Source of the DNA: Bradyrhizobium sp. JYMT SZCCT0180 | GTDB lineage: Bacteria > Pseudomonadota > Alphaproteobacteria > Rhizobiales > Xanthobacteraceae | Reading direction: 5' to 3' | DNA length: 64,000 nt | NCBI RefSeq assembly: GCF_018130165.1 | Contig: NZ_JAFCLZ010000007.1 | Span: 186,001-250,000 of the forward strand | In this document: positions 6,844-29,823 of the stretch, in pieces | Layout: the number at the start of each line of letters is the position of its first letter | Numbering within the stretch: position 1 is the stretch's first letter | Translations under genes and position numbers: made by a program | The notes under the pieces: generated by a model | The model's input: only the letters and a program-made list of their open reading frames with translations | What the model was told of the DNA's origin: nothing | The model's database searches: none

Positions 6844-8448
6844 CTACCCCCGCCGTGCCGCTTCCAGCGCCTGCGGGGTGTCGATGTCGAGAAACGCGCT
6901 CTCGCCCTCGACCGGGACTTCGGCAACGGCCTCGGCATGCTTGGCGATGAGGTGGCGGGCGCCGACGTCGCCGTCCAGCGTCATCAATTCGCGGAAGAAG
7001 CGCCGCGACCACAGCACCGGATTGCCGCGCCGGCCCTCGCTGACGGGGACCGCGATCAGATGGCCACGATCCGGCTCGAACGCCTCGATCAGCCGGTCGA
7101 TCAGTTTGGCATCGATCAGCGGCATGTCGCCGAGGCAGACCAGCGCGCCGTCGGCATTGGCCGGCACCGCCGCAATACCCGCCTTGACGGAGCTTGCGAG
7201 CCCGCCGGCGAAATCCGGGTTGCGGACGAATTTCACTCTCAAGCCGGCCAGTGCCTGCTCGACCAGATCAGCCTGATGGCCGGTGACGACGATCACCTCC
7301 GTCGCCTTCGAGGCCAGCGCATGCTCGGTCACGGTCCGCACCAGCTTGTTGCCGTCGAGTTCGGCGAGCAGCTTGTTTGGGCCGCCCATCCGGGTCGAAC
7401 GTCCGGCCGCGAGCACGATCGCCGCGACGTTGCGGCTGGCTTCGGTGTCGGCAACGGTGCGCGGCTGCGGTCTTGTGACGATTTCCATCAGGAGGCCGCC
7501 GACGCCCATGCCGGTGAGTTCGGCGCGCGTCACCTTCAGCCCTGCGAGCAGGCGCATCAGCACCCAATCAAATCCGTTCTCGACCGGCGAGCGCGCGCAG
7601 CCCGGCGCGCCAAGTACCGGCACGCCACCGGCGCTGCCGATCAGCAGCAGATTGCCGGGATCGACCGGCATGCCGAAATGCTCGATCGCGCCGCCGATTT
7701 CGGTGATCGCGGCCGGGATCACGTCGCGGCGGTCGGCAATCGCGGACGCGCCGAACACGATCACGAGTTCGGCGCCAAGGCCGAGCAATTCCTTGATCGA
7801 GGCTGCGAGCACGGTCTCGTCGTGCGGCACGCGGCGCTCGGCGATGACGCTGGCGCCCGCCGGCGCCAGGCGCTCGGCGGTGACGCGCAAGGTTTTCTCG
7901 ATCACTTTTGGCGCCAGCCCCGGCAACAAGGTGGAAACGATGCCGACGCGCTTGATGGTGTAGGGAGCAATCCGCAGCGCGTTCTTTCCGGCGACGGCAA
8001 CGGCCGCGTCGCGCAGTTTCGCTTCGACGCCGAACGGAATGAGCTTGACGGTCGCGATCATCTCGCCTTCGACCACCGGCTTGAAGGCGGCAAGGGTCGC
8101 AAAGGTAATGGCTTCATCGACGCCGTTGATACGGTCGACCGCGGCGCGATCGACCACCAGCACACCGGCCTGCGCGGCGAACAGATTGGAACGGCCGGTA
8201 AAGGCGCGCTCGACATTGACGCCCTCGCCCGTCACCGCCCGCGCGATGCTGGCCGCGGCGACGTCTTCGGAGACGTCACCGTCTTCCAGCCGCACCACGA
8301 CGATTTCCTTGACGCCGGCCTTGGTCAGCGCCTCGACTTCACCGGGACCAATGGTCGTGCCCTTCTTGAGCACCAGCGCGCCCTGGCGGAGCGTATGCAC
8401 GGTGACGCCGCCAATCGCGTCGGCCGGACTGGCGGGGCCGAACTTCAT
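6844..8448 (-). CDS. MoCF-domain / MobA-like nucleotidyltransferase fusion
   Basis: Fusion protein of 534 residues. Residues 1 to about 335 carry a MoeA/MogA-like molybdopterin-binding region: GGVTVHTLRQGALVLKKGT at the start, then ELVIVFGASAIADRRDVIPA, the usual substrate loop of the MoCF fold. The C-terminal 200 residues form a MobA/MocA-type NTP transferase: AAIVLAAGRSTRMGGPNKLL near 337, VVTGHQ, and LVCLGDMPLID with the metal-binding Asp. MocA-type enzymes add CMP to molybdopterin to make the MCD cofactor of xanthine-oxidase-family enzymes. This fits its place after the xdhC genes, whose stop it overlaps by 4 bases. The fused architecture is common in Bradyrhizobium cox-like operons. Confidence 0.9.
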   Translation of the reverse strand: MKFGPASPADAIGGVTVHTLRQGALVLKKGTTIGPGEVEALTKAGVKEIVVVRLEDGDVSEDVAAASIARAVTGEGVNVERAFTGRSNLFAAQAGVLVVDRAAVDRINGVDEAITFATLAAFKPVVEGEMIATVKLIPFGVEAKLRDAAVAVAGKNALRIAPYTIKRVGIVSTLLPGLAPKVIEKTLRVTAERLAPAGASVIAERRVPHDETVLAASIKELLGLGAELVIVFGASAIADRRDVIPAAITEIGGAIEHFGMPVDPGNLLLIGSAGGVPVLGAPGCARSPVENGFDWVLMRLLAGLKVTRAELTGMGVGGLLMEIVTRPQPRTVADTEASRNVAAIVLAAGRSTRMGGPNKLLAELDGNKLVRTVTEHALASKATEVIVVTGHQADLVEQALAGLRVKFVRNPDFAGGLASSVKAGIAAVPANADGALVCLGDMPLIDAKLIDRLIEAFEPDRGHLIAVPVSEGRRGNPVLWSRRFFRELMTLDGDVGARHLIAKHAEAVAEVPVEGESAFLDIDTPQALEAARRG

Positions 8449-9149
8449 GCCGCCTGCTCTTTCACGTTTTCCTTCGGGAGCCGCAGCTCGGCGGTGATCT
8501 CGGCCATGATCGAGACCGCGATCTCCGACGGCGACACCGCGCCGATGTTGAGACCGATCGGCGCATGGATGCGCGCGATGTCAGCGTCCGATGCGCCCTG
8601 CGCCTTCAGCCGTTCGGCGCGCTTGGCGTGGGTCTTTCGCGAACCGAGCGCGCCGATATAGAAGCAGTCGCGCGCAAACGCATGCAGCAGCGCCGGGTCG
8701 TCGATCTTGGGATCGTGCGTCACTGCGACGAACGCGGTGTAGTGATCGACATTGAGCGGCGGCAGCGCGACGTCGGGCCATTCGGCGATCAGCGGCACAT
8801 CCGGAAAACGCTCGGGGCTGGCGAACGCCGTGCGCGGATCCACCACCGTCACGTCATAATCCAGCGAGCGCGCCAGCGGCGCCAGCGCCTGGCTGATATG
8901 GACCGCGCCGACGATCACGAGCCGCGCGGTCGGCGCGTAGACGTTGAGGAACAGTTTCTTGCCGGCGGCCTCGATCATGCCACTCTTGCCCATGCGCAAC
9001 TGTTTTGAAAGCTCAGCCCGCAGGGGATCGGTCGCGATGTCTTTTGCCTTGACGAGGCGCTGATCGCCATTGGCGGTATCGGTGATCACGATCACCGGCC
9101 GCCGCGCGGCACGCTCGATGTTCACTTCGGAAAGAGTTTGTAGCTTCAC
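8445..9149 (-). CDS. XdhC-family protein, Rossmann half (CoxF/CoxI-like)
   Basis: Protein of 234 residues corresponding to the C-terminal part of XdhC. A Rossmann-like segment (ARLVIVGAVHISQALAPLARSLDYDVTVVDPR) is followed by VTHDPKIDDPALLHAFA and the diagnostic YIGALGSRKTHAKRAERLKAQG and IGLNIGAVSPSEIAVSIMAEI. XdhC proteins hold the molybdenum cofactor, assist its sulfuration and deliver it to xanthine-oxidase-family apoenzymes. The N-terminal XdhC domain is encoded by the preceding gene, with which it overlaps by 4 bases, so the two subunits probably act together. Confidence 0.93.
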   Translation of the reverse strand: MKLQTLSEVNIERAARRPVIVITDTANGDQRLVKAKDIATDPLRAELSKQLRMGKSGMIEAAGKKLFLNVYAPTARLVIVGAVHISQALAPLARSLDYDVTVVDPRTAFASPERFPDVPLIAEWPDVALPPLNVDHYTAFVAVTHDPKIDDPALLHAFARDCFYIGALGSRKTHAKRAERLKAQGASDADIARIHAPIGLNIGAVSPSEIAVSIMAEITAELRLPKENVKEQAA

Positions 9150-9475
9150 GACTGGCCCACCTTCTCGACGAAGACGCGGATAGTGCCGCCGCAGCTTAGA
9201 CCGACATTCCAGGCGGTCTCGTCGGCCACGCCGAATTCCAGCATCTTGGGCTGGCCGCTCGCGATCACGTCGAGCGCCTCGGTGACGACCGCGCCTTCGA
9301 CGCAGCCGCCGGACACCGAGCCTAAGAACGTGCCGTCGTCATTGATGACCAGGCTGGAGCCGGCCGGGCGCGGCGCCGAACCCCAGGTTTCGACCACGGT
9401 CGCCAGCGCAACCCCATGACCGGCCTTTTGCCAGGCCTCGGCGGCCTGCAGGATGTCTTCGTCGCGATTGAGCAT
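9146..9475 (-). CDS. XdhC-family protein, N-terminal domain
   Basis: Protein of 109 residues formed entirely by the XdhC_CoxI N-terminal domain: ATVVETWGSAPRPAGSSLVI, then GSVSGGCVEGAVVTEA with the conserved Gly-Gly-Cys, and a C-terminal GLSCGGTIRVFVE. It lies 13 bases downstream of coxE and overlaps the next gene (ATGA). Cofactor insertion for a molybdenum hydroxylase is the known family role. Confidence 0.92.
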   Translation of the reverse strand: MLNRDEDILQAAEAWQKAGHGVALATVVETWGSAPRPAGSSLVINDDGTFLGSVSGGCVEGAVVTEALDVIASGQPKMLEFGVADETAWNVGLSCGGTIRVFVEKVGQS

Positions 9476-9488
9476 AGCGGGCCTCTTT

Positions 9489-10694
9489 TCAAGCTGCCGA
9501 TCGGATCACGCTGCGATGATGGGGCGGAGGCGGCGCCGAAAGCGCCTCGATCAGCCCTTCCATTGAACTCAAATTATGCACCGCGCGGAATTCGTCAACG
9601 TGCGGCAGCATCATTTTGATGCCCTGCGCCTTGGCCTCGAAGCCGCCATAGCGCAATAGCGGGTTGAGCCAGATCAGGCGGCGGCAAGATCTATGCAGCC
9701 GGTCCATCTCGAATGCCAGTTTGTCGTCGGCCTCGCGCTCCAGCCCGTCAGAGATCAAGAGCACGATGGCGCCCTGCCCGAGCACGCGCCGGCCCCACAA
9801 TTTGTTGAACGAGTGCAGCGAGGTGGCGATCCTTGTGCCGCCGGCCCAGTCCTCAACCGAGGACGAGCAGCGCGCCAGCGCCTCGTCGGGATCGCGCGCC
9901 CGTAAGCTGCGCGTCACATTGGTCAGGCGGGTGCCGAACAGGAACACCGAGACGCGCTTGCGCGCATCGGTGATGGCGTGGAGGAAATGCAGGAACAGGC
10001 GGGTGTATTCGCTCATCGATCCCGAGATATCCAGGAGCGCCACGATCGGCGCCGGCTTGTCGATCCGGCCGAGCTTTCGGATGTCGATGATCTCGCCGCC
10101 GGTGCGCAAGGAGCCGCGCAGCGTCCGGCGCATATCGAGCTTGAGCCCGCGCGCGTCCGGCTGATAGCGGCGGGTGCGCAGTTCGGCCTGCGGCAATCGC
10201 ATATTCGCAATCGCGCGCGTCACTTCGGCGATTTCGGCCGCGCTCATCTGCGCAAAATCCTTCTTCTGCAGGATCTCCTTGTCGGAGACGGAGAGCCGCA
10301 GCTCCTGCTCCTGGGCCTGCGGGGCCTCCTCGCGCATCGAGGGTTGCGCCAAAGCCTCCTGCACGCGCCGCGAGGCCGGCGGCGGCTTTTTCTTGGCGTG
10401 GTCCGGCAGCGGCACCGAATCCAGCATCGACTTCCACTCTTCGGCGGCGCGGAAGAACAGGTCGAAAGCCTGCTTGAAAATCAGCGCATGTTCGTGACGC
10501 TTGACGAAGATCGCTTCCAGCGTGGTGTAGACGTCGGCGCGGTTGCCGATCTCGATCACCTGCAGCGCGTTGAGCGCATCGATGACCGCACCCGGCCCGA
10601 CCGGAATCCCGGCGGCGCGCAAAGCGCGGGCAAAGCCGATGACGTTGTCGGCCATTTGGCCGGTGGGCGGGTTGAGGTGGTTGATGGTTGTCAT
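9489..10694 (-). CDS. coxE: CoxE-like VWA-domain protein
   Basis: Protein of 401 residues counting from the ATG at 10694; an upstream in-frame ATG at 10715 abuts the palindromic element and is less likely. The von Willebrand A domain shows the MIDAS motif DISGSMSEY in IVALLDISGSMSEYTRLFLHF. The N-terminal half is the charged CoxE region (Lys-Pro rich around KKKPPPASRR). With the AAA+ protein CoxD it forms the maturation pair known from Oligotropha carboxidovorans, where the two help build the Cu-Mo centre of CO dehydrogenase. Here the pair is separated from coxD by an inserted palindromic element. Confidence 0.9.
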   Translation of the reverse strand: MTTINHLNPPTGQMADNVIGFARALRAAGIPVGPGAVIDALNALQVIEIGNRADVYTTLEAIFVKRHEHALIFKQAFDLFFRAAEEWKSMLDSVPLPDHAKKKPPPASRRVQEALAQPSMREEAPQAQEQELRLSVSDKEILQKKDFAQMSAAEIAEVTRAIANMRLPQAELRTRRYQPDARGLKLDMRRTLRGSLRTGGEIIDIRKLGRIDKPAPIVALLDISGSMSEYTRLFLHFLHAITDARKRVSVFLFGTRLTNVTRSLRARDPDEALARCSSSVEDWAGGTRIATSLHSFNKLWGRRVLGQGAIVLLISDGLEREADDKLAFEMDRLHRSCRRLIWLNPLLRYGGFEAKAQGIKMMLPHVDEFRAVHNLSSMEGLIEALSAPPPPHHRSVIRSAA

Positions 10695-10710
10695 GGAACC
10701 AATCTCTATC

Positions 10711-10813
10711 GTCATTCCGGGGCGCGCCCCTTGGCGCGAGCCCGGAATCCATTGAGCAGCGTGCGTGCTGACAAATGGATTCCGGGTTCACGCTTCGCGT
10801 GCCCCGGAATGAC
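10711..10813. repeat. Palindromic element between coxD and coxE
   Basis: Outer ends GTCATTCCGGGGCGCG and GCCCCGGAATGAC are inverted. The inner pair CCCGGAATCCATT (10741-10753) / AATGGATTCCGGG (10774-10786) is perfect over 13 bases. It separates two genes that normally belong to one operon. Confidence 0.82.
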
Positions 10814-10815
10814 GG

Positions 10816-11721
10816 CTAGTCGCTCGTCGCTTCCTTCAAAACCTTCTGCAGCGTGTCGCCTTGCATCCGCGCGATGTCGTCCTGGTATTTCAGGAGCGCG
10901 CCCAGCGTGTCGCCGACGACTTGCGGCGTCAGCGAGCGGGCGTCGAGTTCGGTCAGCGCGGTGGCCCAGTCGATGGTCTCGGCAACGCCCGGCGACTTGT
11001 AGAAGTCCTGATCGCGCAGCGCCTGCACGAAGCGCACCACCTGCTGTGACAGCTTTGCGGAAATATCCGGCACGCGCGATTTGACGATCGCCAGCTCGCG
11101 CTCGGCATTGGGATAATCCACCCAATGATAAAGGCAGCGGCGCTTCAGCGCGTCGTGGATTTCGCGGGTGCGGTTCGAGGTGATGATCACGATCGGCGCT
11201 TGCGGCGCCTTCACGGTGCCGAATTCGGGGATCGTCACCTGGAAATCGCTGAGGATCTCCAGAAGATACGCCTCGAACGCCTCGTCGGCGCGGTCGAGTT
11301 CGTCGATCAGCAGCACCGGCGCGCCGGCCACGTCGGGCTCCAGCGCCTGCAGCAGCGGCCGCTTGATCAGGAAACGCTCGGCGAAAATATCGCTGGAAAG
11401 CTGGTCGCGGTCAGTGTCGCCGCCGGCTTCCGCCAGCCGGATCGCGATCATCTGCGCGGCGCTGTTCCACTCGTAGACCGCGGAGGCAACGTCGAGCCCT
11501 TCGTAGCACTGCAGACGGATCAGTTTGCGGCCAAGGGCGGCCGACAGCACCTTTGCGATTTCGGTCTTGCCGACGCCGGCCTCGCCTTCGAGGAACAGCG
11601 GCCGTCCCATCCGCAGCGACAGATAGGTCACCGTCGCCAGCGATCGCTCGGCGAGATAGCCGCGCGAGGTCAGCAATTCCTGCATCGCATCGACGGATTT
11701 GGGTAGCGCCGATGCACTCAT
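10816..11721 (-). CDS. coxD: CoxD-like MoxR-family AAA+ ATPase
   Basis: ATPase of 301 residues. Walker A is GEAGVGKTE (about residues 41-49), Walker B VLLIDELDRADE, sensor 1 IVIITSNRTREIHDALKRRC and the arginine-finger region follows in the MoxR order. Known role: membrane-associated chaperone that unfolds or remodels apo-CO dehydrogenase during insertion of the [MoO2SCuS] cluster. It works with the VWA protein CoxE encoded downstream. The gene begins 139 bases after the end of coxM, a gap occupied by a repeat where coxL would be expected. Confidence 0.92.
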   Translation of the reverse strand: MSASALPKSVDAMQELLTSRGYLAERSLATVTYLSLRMGRPLFLEGEAGVGKTEIAKVLSAALGRKLIRLQCYEGLDVASAVYEWNSAAQMIAIRLAEAGGDTDRDQLSSDIFAERFLIKRPLLQALEPDVAGAPVLLIDELDRADEAFEAYLLEILSDFQVTIPEFGTVKAPQAPIVIITSNRTREIHDALKRRCLYHWVDYPNAERELAIVKSRVPDISAKLSQQVVRFVQALRDQDFYKSPGVAETIDWATALTELDARSLTPQVVGDTLGALLKYQDDIARMQGDTLQKVLKEATSD

Positions 11722-11745
11722 GACAAAGCCAATCTTGCTGAGCCT

Positions 11746-11847
11746 AGAGCCTTTTCGGTTCTGATTGAATCAGAACCGGGCTCTCGATTCTTGTTTTGAC
11801 GCGTTTTCTTCACGCGAACCGGTATCCACTTCGCTCGAAAACGCTCT
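11746..11847. repeat. Dispersed ~100-bp element between coxM and coxD
   Basis: Contains the perfect hairpin GGTTCTGATT-G-AATCAGAACC (11757-11777), then the motif TTGTTTTGACGCGTTTTCTT and ends in GAAAACGCTCT. The reverse complement matches the element at 54010-54132 over most of its length (GAGCGTTTTC..AAGAAAACGCGTCAAAA..hairpin..AGGCTCT). It occupies almost the whole gap between the two cox genes. Confidence 0.85.
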
Positions 11848-11860
11848 TGGGACGGCAAAC

Positions 11861-12664
11861 TTACTTCGCCGTCGCGGCTTCGACGGCGCGGCGCGTCAGC
11901 ACGCCAATCAGATGCGCGCGATATTCGGCGCTGCCGTGCAGGTCGCTGTTCAGCCCTTCGGCCGGAACGGAAACGCCGTCGAGCACCTTGTGCGAGAAGC
12001 GCTTCTTCAACGCCTCTTCGAACGGTTCGGCGCGGAACACGCCGTCCGAACCGGCGCCGGTGACGGCGACGCGGACATCCGACGGACGCTTGGCGACGAA
12101 CACACCGACCAGCGCGTAGCGCGAGGCCTGGTTGCGGAATTTGATATAGGCCGCCTTCTTCGGCACCGGGAACATCACCTTGGTGATGATCTCGTCGCTC
12201 TCGAGCGCCGTCGTGAACAGGCCCTGGAAGAATTCTTCGGCCTTCAGCCGGCGCTTGTTGGTGACGATGGTGGCGCCGAGCGCCAGCACCGCGGCAGGAT
12301 AATCCGCAGTCGGATCGTTGTTGGCGAGCGAGCCGCCGATGGTGCCTTTGTGGCGCACCGCGGGATCGCCGATCATGCCGGCGAGTTCGGCCAGCGCCGG
12401 AATGGCTTCGCCGACGACGGCCGAGGTCGCGACCGCAGCGTGCTTGGCGGTGGCGCCGATCACCAGCGAACGGCCCTTCATCTCGATGCCGTCGAGGCCT
12501 TCGATATGGGAGAGATCGACCAGATGCGGCGGGCTGGCGAGCCGCTGCTTCATGACCGGCACCAGCGTGTGGCCGCCGGCGATCACCTTGGCGTCTTCGT
12601 TCTTCACCAGGAGATTGGCGGCCTGACGCACGGTCGCGGGGCGATGATATTTGAATTCGTACAT
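11861..12664 (-). CDS. coxM: Molybdenum hydroxylase FAD-binding subunit (CoxM-like)
   Basis: FAD subunit of 267 residues. The ATG at 12664 gives MYEFKYHRPATVRQAANLL, the normal N-terminus; the frame is open for another 85 codons upstream but that part is a shadow of coxS. FAD-binding motifs are AGGHTLVP (residues ~34-41) and TIGGSLANNDPTADYP (~110-125), the two pyrophosphate loops of the vanillyl-alcohol-oxidase fold used in CO dehydrogenase and related hydroxylases. Electrons would pass from the Mo subunit through CoxS to this FAD. The Mo subunit is not encoded in the window. Confidence 0.93.
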   Translation of the reverse strand: MYEFKYHRPATVRQAANLLVKNEDAKVIAGGHTLVPVMKQRLASPPHLVDLSHIEGLDGIEMKGRSLVIGATAKHAAVATSAVVGEAIPALAELAGMIGDPAVRHKGTIGGSLANNDPTADYPAAVLALGATIVTNKRRLKAEEFFQGLFTTALESDEIITKVMFPVPKKAAYIKFRNQASRYALVGVFVAKRPSDVRVAVTGAGSDGVFRAEPFEEALKKRFSHKVLDGVSVPAEGLNSDLHGSAEYRAHLIGVLTRRAVEAATAK

Positions 12665-12729
12665 GAGAACTTCCTGATCGCGGTCGCGATGAATTCGATG
12701 ATGCGAGGCGGACTTACGCCAGGTCAGAT

Positions 12730-13215
12730 TTAAGCAAGGTCGGATTTGGCCATCGCCTTGGCGCCGGCGGCGATCGAGGTCACGATGTTCTGATAGCCGG
12801 TGCAGCGGCACAGATTGCCTTCGAGCTCTTCGCGAATGACGTGGTCCGAGAGGTCGTTGCCCTTGCGGTGCACCAAATCGACCGCGGTCATGATCATGCC
12901 GGGGGTGCAGAAGCCGCATTGCAGGCCGTGGTGCTCACGGAAGGCTTCCTGCATCGGATGCAGCGGCGCGCCATCGGCGGCCAGCCCCTCGATGGTCCGC
13001 ACTTCATGGCCATCGGCCATGACCGCCAGCGTGGTGCAGGATTTGACCGCCTTACCGTCGAGATGGACGACGCAGGCCCCGCACTGCGAGGTGTCGCAGC
13101 CGACATGGGTGCCCGTCAGCCGCAGGTTTTCGCGGAGAAACTGGACCAGGAGGGTACGGGGGTCGATATTGGCGTTTACGGGATTGCCGTTCACGATCAG
13201 GGAAATCTTGGCCAT
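12730..13215 (-). CDS. coxS: Molybdenum hydroxylase 2Fe-2S subunit (CoxS-like)
   Basis: Iron-sulfur subunit of 161 residues starting [13 protein letters not shown] at 13215, with a purine-rich site upstream; the 40 extra upstream codons do not belong to the family. Two [2Fe-2S] clusters are seen: the plant-ferredoxin type [17 protein letters not shown] with a fourth Cys in KSCTTLA, and the C-terminal four-helix type QCGFCTPGM ... GNLCRCTGY. Length is typical for CoxS (about 160). It lies upstream of coxM with a 65-base gap. Confidence 0.94.
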
Positions 13216-13426
13216 CAGCACTCTCTTGAGCTGCACTGCCGCATATCGGCTGCGCAGGCGTTTAAAATCGTTCCAAGGCCATAATATGGGCCATCCCGGC
13301 AATGAGCAACCGTGGCAGTCACTCACTTCCGGCATGGCCAGATGCGGCCTAGCGGGACTCTTGAGGGGATATTCGGGCTGGACTTGAGGCGGGAATCTTG
13401 GGCGTGGCCAAGCGTTCAGCCAAGCT

Positions 13427-13873
13427 TCACCCCTGCACCGCCTTGGCGAAATTGGCGAAGAACTCGTCGGCCAGTTTCTTGGCCGAGCCGTTGATCAGGC
13501 GCTGTCCGAGCTGGGCCAGCTTGCCGCCGATCTGGGCCTCGACATTATAGCTCAGCAAGGTGCCGCCATCCTTTTCGGCCAGCGCCACCGTGGCGCCACC
13601 CTTGGCGAAACCGGCAACGCCGCCCTCACCTTCACCGGAGATCTTGTAGCCGTTGGGCGGGTCGAGATCGCTCAGCGTGACCTTGCCCTTGAAGCGGGCG
13701 GAGACCGGGCCGACCTTCATTTTGGCGGTGGCGCGGAAGCCGTTGTCCTCGGTCTTCTCGAGCTCCTCGCAGCCGGGGATGCAGACCTTCAGCACCTCCG
13801 GATCGTTCAATTTGGCCCACACGGCCTCGCGCGGCGCCGCAAGCTGGACTTCGCCGTTCATCGTCATGGCCAT
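13427..13873 (-). CDS. coxG: CoxG-like SRPBCC-fold protein
   Basis: Protein of 148 residues of the CoxG (COXG/SRPBCC) family: [36 protein letters not shown], followed by [35 protein letters not shown]. The start at 13873 is preceded by GGAGG. CoxG is known to help anchor CO dehydrogenase to the cytoplasmic membrane, while family members elsewhere accompany other molybdenum hydroxylases. The protein here is shorter than O. carboxidovorans CoxG and lacks its C-terminal membrane tail. It is the first gene of the cox-type cluster. Confidence 0.9.
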
Positions 13874-14111: not shown

Positions 14112-15464
14112 ATGAGCACATCCCTGTCACCACTACTTGCCCCGATGCTGTCGAGCGCCGCGATGCGGGCGGTATGCGATGATGTCGCGTGCCTGCAGAA
14201 CATGCTGGATTTCGAGGCTGCGCTGGCCCGCGCCGAAGCCGCGATTGGCGTCATTCCAAACCAGGCGGCGGGCCCGATCACGAACGCCTGCCGGGCCGAA
14301 TCATTCGACCTCGCCGCATTGGCCGACGCCGCGACGCGGTCCGGCAATCTCGCGATCCCGCTGGTGAAGGCGCTGACCTCCAATGTCGCCAAGGCTGACG
14401 CCGATGCTGCGCGCTACGTGCATTGGGGCGCGACCAGCCAGGACGTGATCGATACCGGCGCCATGCTCGGCCTGCGCGCCGGCATCGATGCGCTGCTCAT
14501 GGACACCGCCCGCGCCATCGCGGGCTTTGCCAAGCTGGCGCGCCAGCACCGCAACACCGCCGTGGTCGGCCGCACCTGGCTGCAGCACGCGCTGCCGATG
14601 CCGTTCGGGCTCAAGCTAGCCGAATACGCCGCGGCCTTGCACCGCTCGGAGAAGCGACTGCGGCGATTGCGCAGCGAGACGCTGGCGCTGCAGTTCGGCG
14701 GCGCCGCCGGCACGCTCGCCGCGCTCGGCGACCAGGGATTGCCTGTCGCCGAAAAGCTGGCGCAGGAGCTAAAACTGCCGCTGCCCGAGGCCCCCTGGCA
14801 CACCCACCGCGACCGCATCGCGGAGGCCGCATCCGTGCTCGCCATTCTCGCCGGCACTTGCGGCAAGATTGCCCGCGACGTTTCGCTGATGATGCAGACC
14901 GACGTCGGCGAAGCCTTTGAGCCGTCAGGCGAAGGCCGCGGCGGCTCCTCCACCATGCCGCACAAGCGCAACCCCGTGGCGGCCGCGACCGCGCTTGCCG
15001 CCGCCACCATGGCGCCCAATCTGGCGGCGACGATTTTTGCCGCCCAGGTGCAGGACCACGAACGCAGCGCCGGTCCCTGGCACGCGGAATGGCCGACCCT
15101 GCCGACCTTGCTGCTGGTCACCTCGGGGGCACTTGCGGCCATCGTCGACATCGCCGAAGGACTGGAAGTCGATGTGATCAGGATGCGCGCCAATCTCGAC
15201 GCCACCGACGGGCTGATCATGGCGGAAGCGGTGACATTCGCGCTGGCTGAGAAGATCGGCAAAAGCGACGCACATCATCTGATCGAGGCGGCCAGCAAGA
15301 AAGCGGTCGCCGAGAAGAAACATCTGCGCGACGTGCTGACATCAGATTCAAAAGTCACCGCGCAGCTCAGCGCCGCGACAATCGCAGAACTGTTCGAGCC
15401 GATGGCCTATCAGGGCGCCTCGCAAGCCCTGATCGACCGCCTGCTCGCTTCACTGGAAACTTAA
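14112..15464 (+). CDS. pcaB: 3-carboxy-cis,cis-muconate cycloisomerase
   Basis: Enzyme of 450 residues in the fumarase/aspartase superfamily, converting 3-carboxy-cis,cis-muconate to 4-carboxymuconolactone in the protocatechuate branch of the beta-ketoadipate pathway. The superfamily signature GSSTMPHKRNP lies at about residues 278-288, and the helix with VHWGATSQDVIDTG near 105 is the other conserved region. PcaB is distinguished from adenylosuccinate lyase by the TWLQHALPMPFGLKLAEYAAALHR segment. It starts a pcaB-pcaD-pcaC set, with 17 bases to pcaD. The first two pathway genes (pcaGH) are not in the window. Confidence 0.94.
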   Translation: MSTSLSPLLAPMLSSAAMRAVCDDVACLQNMLDFEAALARAEAAIGVIPNQAAGPITNACRAESFDLAALADAATRSGNLAIPLVKALTSNVAKADADAARYVHWGATSQDVIDTGAMLGLRAGIDALLMDTARAIAGFAKLARQHRNTAVVGRTWLQHALPMPFGLKLAEYAAALHRSEKRLRRLRSETLALQFGGAAGTLAALGDQGLPVAEKLAQELKLPLPEAPWHTHRDRIAEAASVLAILAGTCGKIARDVSLMMQTDVGEAFEPSGEGRGGSSTMPHKRNPVAAATALAAATMAPNLAATIFAAQVQDHERSAGPWHAEWPTLPTLLLVTSGALAAIVDIAEGLEVDVIRMRANLDATDGLIMAEAVTFALAEKIGKSDAHHLIEAASKKAVAEKKHLRDVLTSDSKVTAQLSAATIAELFEPMAYQGASQALIDRLLASLET

Positions 15465-15481
15465 GAGACCGGAGACATTCC

Positions 15482-16264
15482 ATGCCGATGATCGACGCCG
15501 ACGGGTGCCTGCTCAACGTATCCGTCGAAGGCCGCGACGGCGGGCCGACGCTGATGCTGTCGAATTCGCTGGGCTCGACGATGCAGATGTGGGAGCCGCA
15601 GATGAAGGCGCTGACGCAGGTGTTTCGCGTCATCCGCTACGACCGGCGCGGCCACGGCAAATCCAGCGTGCCGCCAGGCCCCTATTCGATGGAACGTTTC
15701 GGCCGCGACGTGCTGGCGATCCTCGACGACCTGAATATTGCGAAGACGCATTGGTGCGGGCTGTCGATGGGCGGCATGGTCGGGCAATGGCTGGGCGCCA
15801 ATGCCCCGGATAGATTCGGCAAACTCATCCTCGCCAACACCGCTTGCCACTATCCCGACCCGACCAACTGGCACAACCGCATCAAGGCGGTGAAGGAAGG
15901 CGGCATATCAGCGGTCGCCGACACCGTGATCGGTGGCTGGCTGACCGCAGATTTTCGCGAGCGCGAGCCGCAGATCACCGCCAACATGAAGGCGATGATG
16001 CTGGCAACACCCGTCGAGGGCTACCTCGCCTGCTGCGAGGCGCTGTCGACACTGGATAACCGCGAGATGCTGCCGAAGATCAAAAGCCCGACCCTGGTGA
16101 TTGCCGGACGCCACGACATGTCGACGCCGGTTTCAGCCGGTGAATACATCCGCAGCCAGATCCCCGGTGCCAGCATGACGATTTTGGACGCCGCGCATAT
16201 TTCCAATGTCGAGCAACCGCACGCCTTCACCGACGCGGTGGTCGGCTTCCTGACGCAACGCTAA
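15482..16264 (+). CDS. pcaD: 3-oxoadipate enol-lactonase
   Basis: Alpha/beta hydrolase of 260 residues that opens 3-oxoadipate enol-lactone. The nucleophile elbow is GLSMGGMVG (Ser95), the catalytic Asp is in VIAGRHDMSTP and the His in LDAAHISNVEQP. The start MPMIDADGCLLNVSVEGRDGGPTLMLSNSLG fits the family and a ribosome site GGAGAC precedes it. It follows pcaB closely, whereas pcaC is separated by an inserted palindromic element. Confidence 0.94.
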   Translation: MPMIDADGCLLNVSVEGRDGGPTLMLSNSLGSTMQMWEPQMKALTQVFRVIRYDRRGHGKSSVPPGPYSMERFGRDVLAILDDLNIAKTHWCGLSMGGMVGQWLGANAPDRFGKLILANTACHYPDPTNWHNRIKAVKEGGISAVADTVIGGWLTADFREREPQITANMKAMMLATPVEGYLACCEALSTLDNREMLPKIKSPTLVIAGRHDMSTPVSAGEYIRSQIPGASMTILDAAHISNVEQPHAFTDAVVGFLTQR

Positions 16265-16271
16265 CAACAGT

Positions 16272-16381
16272 CGTCATTGCCTGCAACAAACGCGAAGCGT
16301 TTGTGCTAGGGAGCGAAGCGACGAAGCAATCCATACCTCCTCAACGGGACAATGGATTGCTTCGCTGCGCTCGCAATGACG
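16272..16381. repeat. Palindromic element between pcaD and pcaC
   Basis: Ends CGTCATTGC / GCAATGACG are inverted; the inner pair GAAGCAATCCAT (16323-16334) / ATGGATTGCTTC (16352-16363) is perfect over 12 bases. This is the GTCATTGCGAGCG...CAATCCAT family also seen as a half element at 3342-3371. Confidence 0.85.
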
Positions 16382-16394
16382 GGAGGAGAATCCC

Positions 16395-16787
16395 ATGGAC
16401 GACGACAAGCGCCGCGAGAACGGCATGACGCAGCGCCGAAAAGTGCTCGGCAATGAATGGGTCGACAAATCGATCAAGAACCGCAACGCGTTCAACACCG
16501 ATTTCCAGGACCTGATCACCCGCTATGCCTGGGGCGATATCTGGACCCGGCCGCATTTCGACCACCGCACAAGGCGCGTGCTGGTCATCGGCACCATGGT
16601 CGCGCTCGGCCAATGGGATGAATTCCGCCTGCATGTGCGGGCGGCGCTGGCCGAAGGCGGCTTCACGCCCGACGATATCAAGGAAATCATCCTGCAGCAG
16701 GCGATCTATTGCGGCGTGCCCGCGGCCAACCACGCCGTCAAGGAAGCCGCAGCGATCGTCGCCGAACTAGGTCTGCTGAAGGGATAG
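16395..16787 (+). CDS. pcaC: 4-carboxymuconolactone decarboxylase
   Basis: Protein of 130 residues (CMD/AhpD fold) that decarboxylates 4-carboxymuconolactone to 3-oxoadipate enol-lactone. The conserved regions are ITRYAWGDIWTRPHFDHRTRRVLVIG, then EFRLHVRAAL and the active-site helix EIILQQAIYCGVPAANHAV. The ATG is preceded by GGAGGAGAA directly after the palindromic element. Its 3' end overlaps the last 21 bases of the convergent membrane-protein gene. Confidence 0.94.
   Translation: MDDDKRRENGMTQRRKVLGNEWVDKSIKNRNAFNTDFQDLITRYAWGDIWTRPHFDHRTRRVLVIGTMVALGQWDEFRLHVRAALAEGGFTPDDIKEIILQQAIYCGVPAANHAVKEAAAIVAELGLLKG

Positions 16788-23535: not shown

Positions 23536-29823
<6,288 letters not shown>

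Follow-up and report, generated by a model that had tools for sequence, protein, structure and literature searches.

The coxL-free cluster and its neighbors

Positions 6844-13873 of the window (the whole 64,000-nucleotide stretch of Bradyrhizobium DNA that was analyzed) carry, on the minus strand, coxG, coxS, coxM, coxD, coxE, a split xdhC, and a mocA-like fusion gene, and the catalytic subunit is absent. We use S for the 2Fe-2S subunit (coxS), M for the FAD subunit (coxM), L for the molybdenum-binding large subunit, and hub for this coxL-free cluster. An earlier note on this DNA had listed the eight-gene set, and every member has a Pfam match. The features of the cluster and of the adjoining pca genes are as follows.

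13427..13873, minus strand: coxG-like SRPBCC protein, 148 aa, first gene of the cluster (CoxG PF06240, E 8.9e-39)
12730..13218, minus strand: coxS, 2Fe-2S subunit, 162 aa from the likely start (Fer2_2 PF01799, E 1.5e-31; PF00111, 6.5e-07)
12656..12729, no strand: S-M junction, 74 bases between coxM and coxS; site of coxL in L-containing relatives
11861..12655, minus strand: coxM, FAD subunit, 264 aa (FAD_binding_5 PF00941, E 5.2e-51; PF03450, 3.4e-07)
11722..11860, no strand: coxM-coxD gap, 139 bases, from ORF coordinates
10816..11721, minus strand: coxD, MoxR-type AAA ATPase, 301 aa (AAA_5 PF07728, E 2.1e-11)
9489..10715, minus strand: coxE, VWA-domain maturation protein, 408 aa (VWA_CoxE PF05762, E 1.4e-78)
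9146..9475, minus strand: XdhC N-terminal half, 109 aa (XdhC_CoxI PF02625, E 5.7e-28)
8445..9149, minus strand: XdhC C-terminal Rossmann half, 234 aa (XdhC_C PF13478, E 2.2e-45)
6844..8448, minus strand: fusion with a MobA-like NTP transferase, 534 aa (NTP_transf_3 PF12804, E 3.9e-43)
14112..15464, plus strand: pcaB, divergent neighbor linked to the cluster (NF006554, 669 bits; TIGR02426, 424 bits; both over cut-off)
15482..16264, plus strand: pcaD neighbor (TIGR02427, 298.5 bits, over cut-off)
16395..16787, plus strand: pcaC neighbor (TIGR02425, 151.9 bits, just under the 155.7 cut-off)

Profile alignments and alignments with relatives were used to choose the starts of coxS and coxM, which are probably at 13218 and 12655, respectively, rather than at the outer limit of each ORF (13335 for coxS). 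The S and M domains exceed the curated cut-offs (in parentheses) for the xanthine-oxidase family: PF01799, 108.8 bits (30.3); PF00941, 173.3 (27); and PF03450, 30.8 (25.5). The cluster copy of CoxG is one of two in the genome. CoxD scored 269 bits against the NCBIfam MadB ATPase family, under its cut-off of 475. The two ORFs previously described as an XdhC pair do exist and share a 4-base overlap, but they represent one split XdhC, with the XdhC_CoxI domain in the first and the Rossmann domain in the second, rather than two XdhC proteins. The 6844..8448 fusion is probably a molybdenum cofactor cytidylyltransferase, at 166 bits against TIGR03310 (MocA; cut-off, 186).

The pca linkage may point to an aromatic-pathway role for the cluster. 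In loci from nearby genera (L103 to L122), pcaD is linked in 18/20 and pcaB in 7/20. Nitrobacter-type loci keep the cluster with no pcaB or pcaC match in the stretches fetched: around the cluster of the Nitrobacter-type genome G100, pcaD is retained beside coxG (TIGR02427, 281.5 bits, over cut-off), and matches to pcaB and pcaC were not found.

Distribution of the coxL-free state

The ORF list contains no large-subunit ORF within 6844-13873, and a whole-genome PF02738 search gave zero matches on the contig that carries the cluster (C48), so that the same-cluster catalytic subunit of the xanthine-oxidase family is missing here, as the earlier note had observed. Its usual site had been placed between coxS/coxM and coxD, and the 139-base coxM-coxD spacing was measured correctly; however, coxL in relatives sits between coxS and coxM, and the informative gap is therefore the 74 bases at 12656-12729.

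We mapped this junction in 25 genomes of the same genus, our own included; five further same-genus genomes lie outside this count. It is intact in 25/25, several of which are single contigs, with alignment gaps of 40 to 95 bases and no large-subunit-like match, so that neither chance nor a gap in the assembly can account for it. Loss of coxL in this strain alone, whether recent or an artefact of assembly, was suggested by the first impression of a missing gene and by other clusters that carry L at the S-M site, but the identical junction throughout the genus refutes it and leaves it a negligible probability.

Beyond the genus, all 20 mapped loci from nearby genera are coxL free. In more distant genera of the same family, coxL lies between coxS and coxM in 12/20 loci, as it does in 4/5 loci from other families; L075, L077, L078, and L079 have it at this site. 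Because the coxL-free state is normal in the genus and in nearby genera and is accompanied by separate large-subunit loci, the combination that the earlier note had named as a sign of ancestry rather than loss, the arrangement is, on these sequence comparisons, ancestral for the genus. At a deeper level it looks like a loss, given the coxL-containing loci of distant genera and other families and the tree of hub S plus M, on which coxL presence and absence require eight state changes (at least five forced by starred branches), although the method does not distinguish gain from loss.

Large subunits encoded elsewhere

The genome-wide search for coxL-like genes and their neighbors that had been proposed recovered 19 large-subunit genes in the genome, 5 of them stray, with no 2Fe-2S gene within 5 kb. 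Conversely, the hub coxS is the only 1 of the 15 S genes in this genome without a large subunit within 5 kb. All stray large subunits (23/23 rows) fall in a single clade (support 100/99), which is sister to large subunits encoded together with S and M. One of them, the A-type, adjoins murJ, and its surroundings are free of hub-type S and M in 80/80 named loci (in 68 of these, each flank covers at least 2.5 kb) and in 19/19 loci from more distant genera. The active-site loop AYRGAGR is found in A-type (29/29 rows), B-type (6/6), and C-type (6/7) sequences, with the variants AYRGAGK in D-type and PYRSAGR in E-type sequences. The E-type alignment has Glu at the active-site position (RPGSEGG).

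As for enzyme class, the Y-x-CSF (CSFR-type) loop is the active-site motif of the large subunit of form I CO dehydrogenase (CODH). Six-frame translation of the 19 large-subunit loci of the genome (L001 to L019) did not reveal it, and the scores against TIGR02416 (form I CODH; cut-off, 991 bits) were all below the cut-off, at 500.5 for A-type, 461.8 for D-type, 423.7 for E-type, and 663.9 for the large subunit of the genome's own S-L-M operon (L057). Because of this motif result and these scores, the "cox" label is, by sequence criteria, a loose one. Aerobic form I CODH (1n5w, 8uem) shares the three-subunit plan and the CoxD/E/G accessory names, and the A-type L has its best PDB match in 8uem_A, but the loop and the profile scores set it apart. 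Clusters resembling form II (BMS-type) CODH, with the order coxG-S-L-M-D-E (L075, L078, and L274 of Microvirga), have the same genes, order, and maturation set, S and M orthologous to those of the hub, and large subunits that share the AYRGAGR loop. Their three subunit genes share one operon, whereas the hub is without L in all 25 congeneric genomes mapped and stray large subunits of the sister clade lie elsewhere. Glyceraldehyde oxidoreductase (NF041018 to NF041020; PDB 4zoh) provides the best NCBIfam matches for hub S (216 bits; cut-off, 290), hub M (223.6; 350), and A-type L (586.2; 790), all under cut-off, and among PDB chains CoxS matches 4zoh_C best. We read the dispersed catalytic subunits as closest to form II CODH/glyceraldehyde oxidoreductase and as unlikely to be CO dehydrogenases. 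To our knowledge, a split, shared arrangement is not part of the glyceraldehyde oxidoreductase families, and no shared S/M module is described in the titles and abstracts surveyed on coxL, Bradyrhizobium, orphan subunits, and Nitrobacter. The Rieske oxygenases of Sphingobium yanoikuyae B1 offer a comparison of working principle only, as their proteins are unrelated to the hub.

A candidate shared S/M module

To relate catalytic to electron-transfer subunits, we counted both in 13 hub genomes (12 picked plus our own) and in 12 chosen hub-less genomes, which represent few lineages and all lacked the A-type at the time of selection. The hub genomes hold 80 L and 61 S genes, compared with 74 and 75 in the hub-less genomes, and L exceeds S in 7/13 versus 0/12 (Fisher P value = 0.005), a surplus tied to the presence of the hub. 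Within the hub genomes, 32 large subunits lack an S within 5 kb, and the 13 S genes without an L are in each case the hub coxS. G145, which has no hub, has no A-type and 4 L for 4 S, and its congener G126 has the hub and three stray large subunits. Nitrobacter-type relatives are represented by G100 and G141, whose PF02738 and PF01799 genes number exactly one each. The two genes lie 1.2 Mb from one another on a single contig in G100 and on different contigs in G141; by elimination, the stray L is therefore likely the partner of the hub.

The earlier note had offered that L is encoded elsewhere or that the subunits serve another partner. Both apparently hold together, with S and M probably serving non-neighboring partners, a pairing that we infer from the genomes. 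We consider it likely that the cluster, which belongs to the xanthine-oxidase family, works as an independent hub for electron transfer and maturation and serves from one to five catalytic subunits whose genes are dispersed. CoxS and CoxM would dock onto large subunits encoded elsewhere; CoxD, CoxE, XdhC, and the MocA-like fusion would assemble and insert the cofactor; and CoxG would perhaps tether the complex to the membrane. The A-type beside murJ would be the invariable partner, and in larger genomes up to four more stray large subunits (types B to E and others) may alternate on the same S/M module, so that one support set could yield several substrate specificities, probably for aldehydes or N-heterocycles judging by the family. 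We lean slightly toward a broader reading, in which a large, old clade of catalytic subunits abandoned the electron-transfer partners that were once its own and now relies on a single S/M/maturation module shared within each genome, with new specificities able to arise by movement of a single gene and the hub repeatedly dispensing with its own catalytic subunit.

It is unlikely, although less so than the other alternatives, that the hub pairs with the A-type alone, the B to E types using S and M from other operons, forming different complexes, or being inactive. The A-type is the only stray type found in all 13 hub genomes and the sole L in G100 and G141, and D-type copies in our genome (L052) and in G006 (L096) have Gln at the expected position of the active-site Glu. 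This pairing leaves unexplained the excess of L over S in genomes with B to E types, set against the balance in hub-less genomes, and every type falls in one clade with the A-type. It is quite improbable that stray large subunits hand electrons directly to other carriers, leaving the hub as a relic or with another role. A cytochrome c' gene does follow the A-type in 7/12 loci of group A, 17/19 distant loci, and 74/80 named loci, usually with a cytochrome c gene, but five Nitrobacter-type (g36) A-type loci are without both while the hub is kept and conserved. Moreover, hub S and M differ on average by just 4% and 8% among the 13 genomes, an ill fit to a relic. The S-L-M operon on contig C27 of our genome is a possible extra user of the hub, although S and M are already encoded within it, and neither G100 nor G141 carries another S or L.

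Wider surveys weigh both for and against the association with the A-type. In its favor, the A-type is present in 45/45 genomes with a coxS at least 85% identical; against it, the A-type is missing from 32/125 coxS-positive genomes. Further counterexamples come from G048, G051, G070, and G094, whose hubs are L free and in which a search for the A-type only, at 1e-230, did not find it. G043 (98% complete, 6% contamination) carries the A-type twice, with no coxS found at 1e-70, and contains an M-S-L-D-E operon with an S at 56% identity, suggesting that another S/M set may serve an A-type. G107, G155, and G171 (66, 72, and 90% complete) have the A-type, with no coxS found at 1e-70 and no CoxD at 1e-40.

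Molybdenum hydroxylases are usually annotated operon by operon, leaving stray "xanthine dehydrogenase family molybdopterin-binding subunit" genes partnerless. If one S/M module does serve several large subunits, these genes would become assignable enzymes, new substrates could be gained by acquiring one gene, and a single coxS deletion should abolish several activities together. The idea can be tested directly in Nitrobacter-type genomes, where the only L and the only S lie at different loci, and the counts caution against treating coxL-free clusters as broken CO dehydrogenases.

The possibility that promiscuity slows CoxS specifically was not supported: the S/M rate ratio is not lower in the hub (0.53) than in a self-contained paralogue operon (0.47), and S is thus under no special constraint. 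Taken together, hub S and M change at about half the rate of that paralogue operon.

The coxL-free cluster and its relatives

Three features of the window, which spans positions 186001-250000 of contig C48 in a genome of 8.04 Mb and 50 contigs, are considered here:

6844-13873 (-), cox-type cluster (the hub): coxG, coxS, coxM, coxD, coxE, a split xdhC and a mocA-like fusion gene
14112-16787 (+), pcaB-pcaD-pcaC, divergent from coxG
23536-29823 (+), gene for a hybrid histidine kinase of 2095 aa that contains a long HAMP array

All eight cox-type genes of the hub were confirmed by Pfam. The earlier note was correct in describing the cluster as lacking coxL: no gene for the large, molybdenum-binding subunit (L) occurs among its open reading frames, and the genome-wide PF02738 search had no match on the hub contig (C48). 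The spacing between coxM and coxD is 139 bases, as that note stated, and coxS and coxM are separated by 74 bases. Its “XdhC pair” is, by Pfam, a single XdhC split across two genes, one for the N-terminal half and the other for the C-terminal half. The pca genes have the same arrangement in another family (locus L075), and pcaD is the most persistent hub neighbor among them.

Comparison of the same interval in related strains, a check proposed in the earlier note, returned coxL-free hubs in all loci mapped from the genus and from nearby genera. Of 41 genomes searched, 25 belonged to the genus (five other same-genus genomes were left unmapped), and in all 25 coxS adjoins coxM with no L-like sequence (3.5-kb loci). 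The same was true of 20/20 mapped loci from nearby genera with coxS at least 85% identical, a group of 45 genomes of which 22, including our own and G021, were mapped. Below 80% coxS identity (20 loci from 19 genomes), L lies between the genes for the 2Fe-2S subunit (S) and the FAD subunit (M) in 12 loci and is absent from 8; an additional genome, G186, has L in that position. Among five loci from other families, L is present in four (L075, L077, L078, and L079) and absent from one (L076). On an S+M tree of 67 rows, L presence and absence require eight changes, at least five of them forced by starred branches; we read most as losses because the root side of the tree is L bearing, the method itself being unable to tell gain from loss. 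The coxL-free state of the hub is old, and the arrangement is a conserved split, not a broken cluster and not peculiar to this genome. Genome G108 has two hubs (L133 and L134), one L-free with a second coxM-like gene and the other with L.

Mean differences across 13 genomes were 0.041 for hub S and 0.077 for hub M, versus 0.080 (S), 0.087 (L), and 0.171 (M) for a self-contained paralogue operon in the same genomes. Constraint on the hub is stronger than on that operon; the hub S/M rate ratio was not lower than that of the operon in these 13 genomes.

Large subunits encoded at distant loci

The genome-wide search for coxL-like genes suggested in the earlier note found 19 L genes in our genome (20 PF02738 matches, two in one frame), along with 15 S and 9 M genes. 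Pairing within 5 kb left five L genes without a partner S (stray L), on contigs C13, C14, C12, C39, and C47, and a single S without a partner L (stray S), the hub coxS; no hub-type S or M was present beside the five stray L genes in the 15- to 18-kb stretches examined. A set of 12 relatives, chosen so that small genomes were among them, was searched for PF02738 and PF01799. The single-contig genome G100 (3.40 Mb) and G141 each contain exactly one S, the hub coxS, and exactly one L, which stands alone, 1.2 Mb from S in G100 and on a different contig in G141. G128, G158, G059, and G122 each combine a single stray L with a single stray S, and in G132, G126, G082, and G045 the single stray S is accompanied by three stray L; G006 has four stray L genes and G084 has five. 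The stray S was the hub coxS in 13/13 genomes (the 12 and our own).

The 32 stray L genes of these 13 genomes comprise 13 of type A (one in every genome), 6 of B, 7 of C, 2 of D, 1 of E, and three further singletons. The order murJ, A-type gene, cytochrome c', c-type cytochrome occurs in 7/12 group A loci (for example, L051:5472-9476 has both cytochrome genes downstream). The murJ/A-type/cytochrome arrangement occurs in 74/80 named loci, and cytochrome c' follows the A-type gene in 17/19 distant loci; neither set contains a hub-type S or M nearby. Both cytochromes are absent from the five A-type loci of the Nitrobacter-type genus g36 (G100, G141, G158, G059, and G122). The B-type gene adjoins ppx/gppA, and a DHDPS-family gene is often near the C-type gene.

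In a 35-L tree (LG+C20 PMSF), 23/23 stray L sequences formed one clade (ultrafast bootstrap 100, SH-aLRT 99), sister to L encoded with S and M; a quick 72-row tree concurred (48 stray rows together, support 99). We added 16 plasmid loci of other alphaproteobacteria, chosen from the best 15 of 117 to 154 matches in each search. In the 44-row tree, S lies within 600 bases in 15/15 rows of the hub/operon clade and is absent from that distance in 25/26 rows of the stray clade; for two rows, L280 and L285, the fetched sequence ends ~0.5 kb away, and S may lie just past that point. A single subclade takes in the exception and the near-exceptions: S is at 502 bases in Rhizobium tropici, at 754 bases in Gemmobacter, and at 4.2 kb in Agrobacterium, and these look like an intermediate stage. 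Support was only 81 for the node adding L276 and 98 without it; L of Methylobacterium aquaticum and Azospirillum thermophilum fall among the stray members. On the Neorhizobium petrolearium plasmid (L280), a UbiD-type decarboxylase gene lies between two stray L genes with UbiX nearby and no S or M annotated in the stretch, possibly a second shared system, for aromatic acids.

Co-occurrence and subunit counts

Among 149 genomes of the family (cut-offs, E ≤ 1e-70 for coxS and ≤ 1e-230 for A-type L), 93 had both genes, 32 coxS alone, 6 A-type alone, and 18 neither (Fisher P = 7e-6, uncorrected for kinship). The A-type gene was found in 45/45 genomes of the ≥85% coxS group. Of the A-type-alone genomes, G186 has a complete hub including L, and G137 has hub CoxD at a contig end; G107, G155, and G171 (66, 72, and 90% complete) had neither coxS nor hub CoxD at the search cut-offs. 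G043 is a real exception, carrying a different operon, M-S-L-D-E.

As hub-less controls, we took, from 24 coxS-negative genomes, 12 of the more complete, every one of these 12 being A-type negative too. They contain 74 L versus 75 S genes, with L exceeding S in none, compared with 7/13 hub genomes (P = 0.005). Because hub S and A-type L occur once apiece in every hub genome, the surplus reflects other types only, and A-type-negative controls do not create it. Kinship might be a source of this surplus. G145 lacks both hub and A-type gene, and its g41 congeners G126, G064, G104, and G162 have both. In the hub-less genomes, five L genes were farther than 5 kb from any S. One of them is at the edge of a contig, and the other four are in genus g39 (G101, G123, G142, and G159), where a divergent L pair has one S near and a second, unpaired S 17 to 23 kb off on the same contig; this is another, local form of splitting.

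Elimination in two genomes, together with co-occurrence, indicates that the A-type subunit probably pairs with hub S/M, and the surplus, the common clade, and co-occurrence suggest that the other stray types probably do so as well.

Proposed working and enzyme class

In these enzymes the large subunit is the site of the molybdenum cytosine dinucleotide and the substrate, and the two 2Fe-2S clusters of S relay electrons to the FAD of M. Production and transfer of the sulfurated cofactor fall to XdhC and MocA, CoxD and CoxE assist insertion, and CoxG may be the membrane tether of the complex. The hub would supply electron-transfer, maturation, and tethering parts, with the catalytic L coming from elsewhere in the genome. 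Several L on one hub, if true, would be a new version of the molybdenum hydroxylase plan. The nearest working analogy is the Sphingobium yanoikuyae B1 oxygenases, which have one electron donor system in common (PMC1847435).

The AYRGAGR motif and the G-x-GE glutamate are present in A, B, and most C types, and the E-type loop is PYRSAGR. In the D-type genes of our genome (L052, G000:C14:85471) and G006 (L096), Gln replaces the active-site Glu (KGTGQAG), and normal hydroxylase chemistry may be changed or lost as a result. The 19 large-subunit loci of our genome showed no form I CODH loop, and the NCBIfam scores fell short of the curated CODH, glyceraldehyde, and xanthine enzyme cut-offs. A published survey considers CO an unlikely physiological substrate of form II enzymes (PMC6794299).

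Elsewhere in the window, the HAMP array of the 2095-aa kinase comprises 11 PF00672 and 9 HAMP_2 stretches, and the DNA coding for it is a 276-base unit repeated in tandem ~10 times; the strand opposite the gene is open over 1999 codons.
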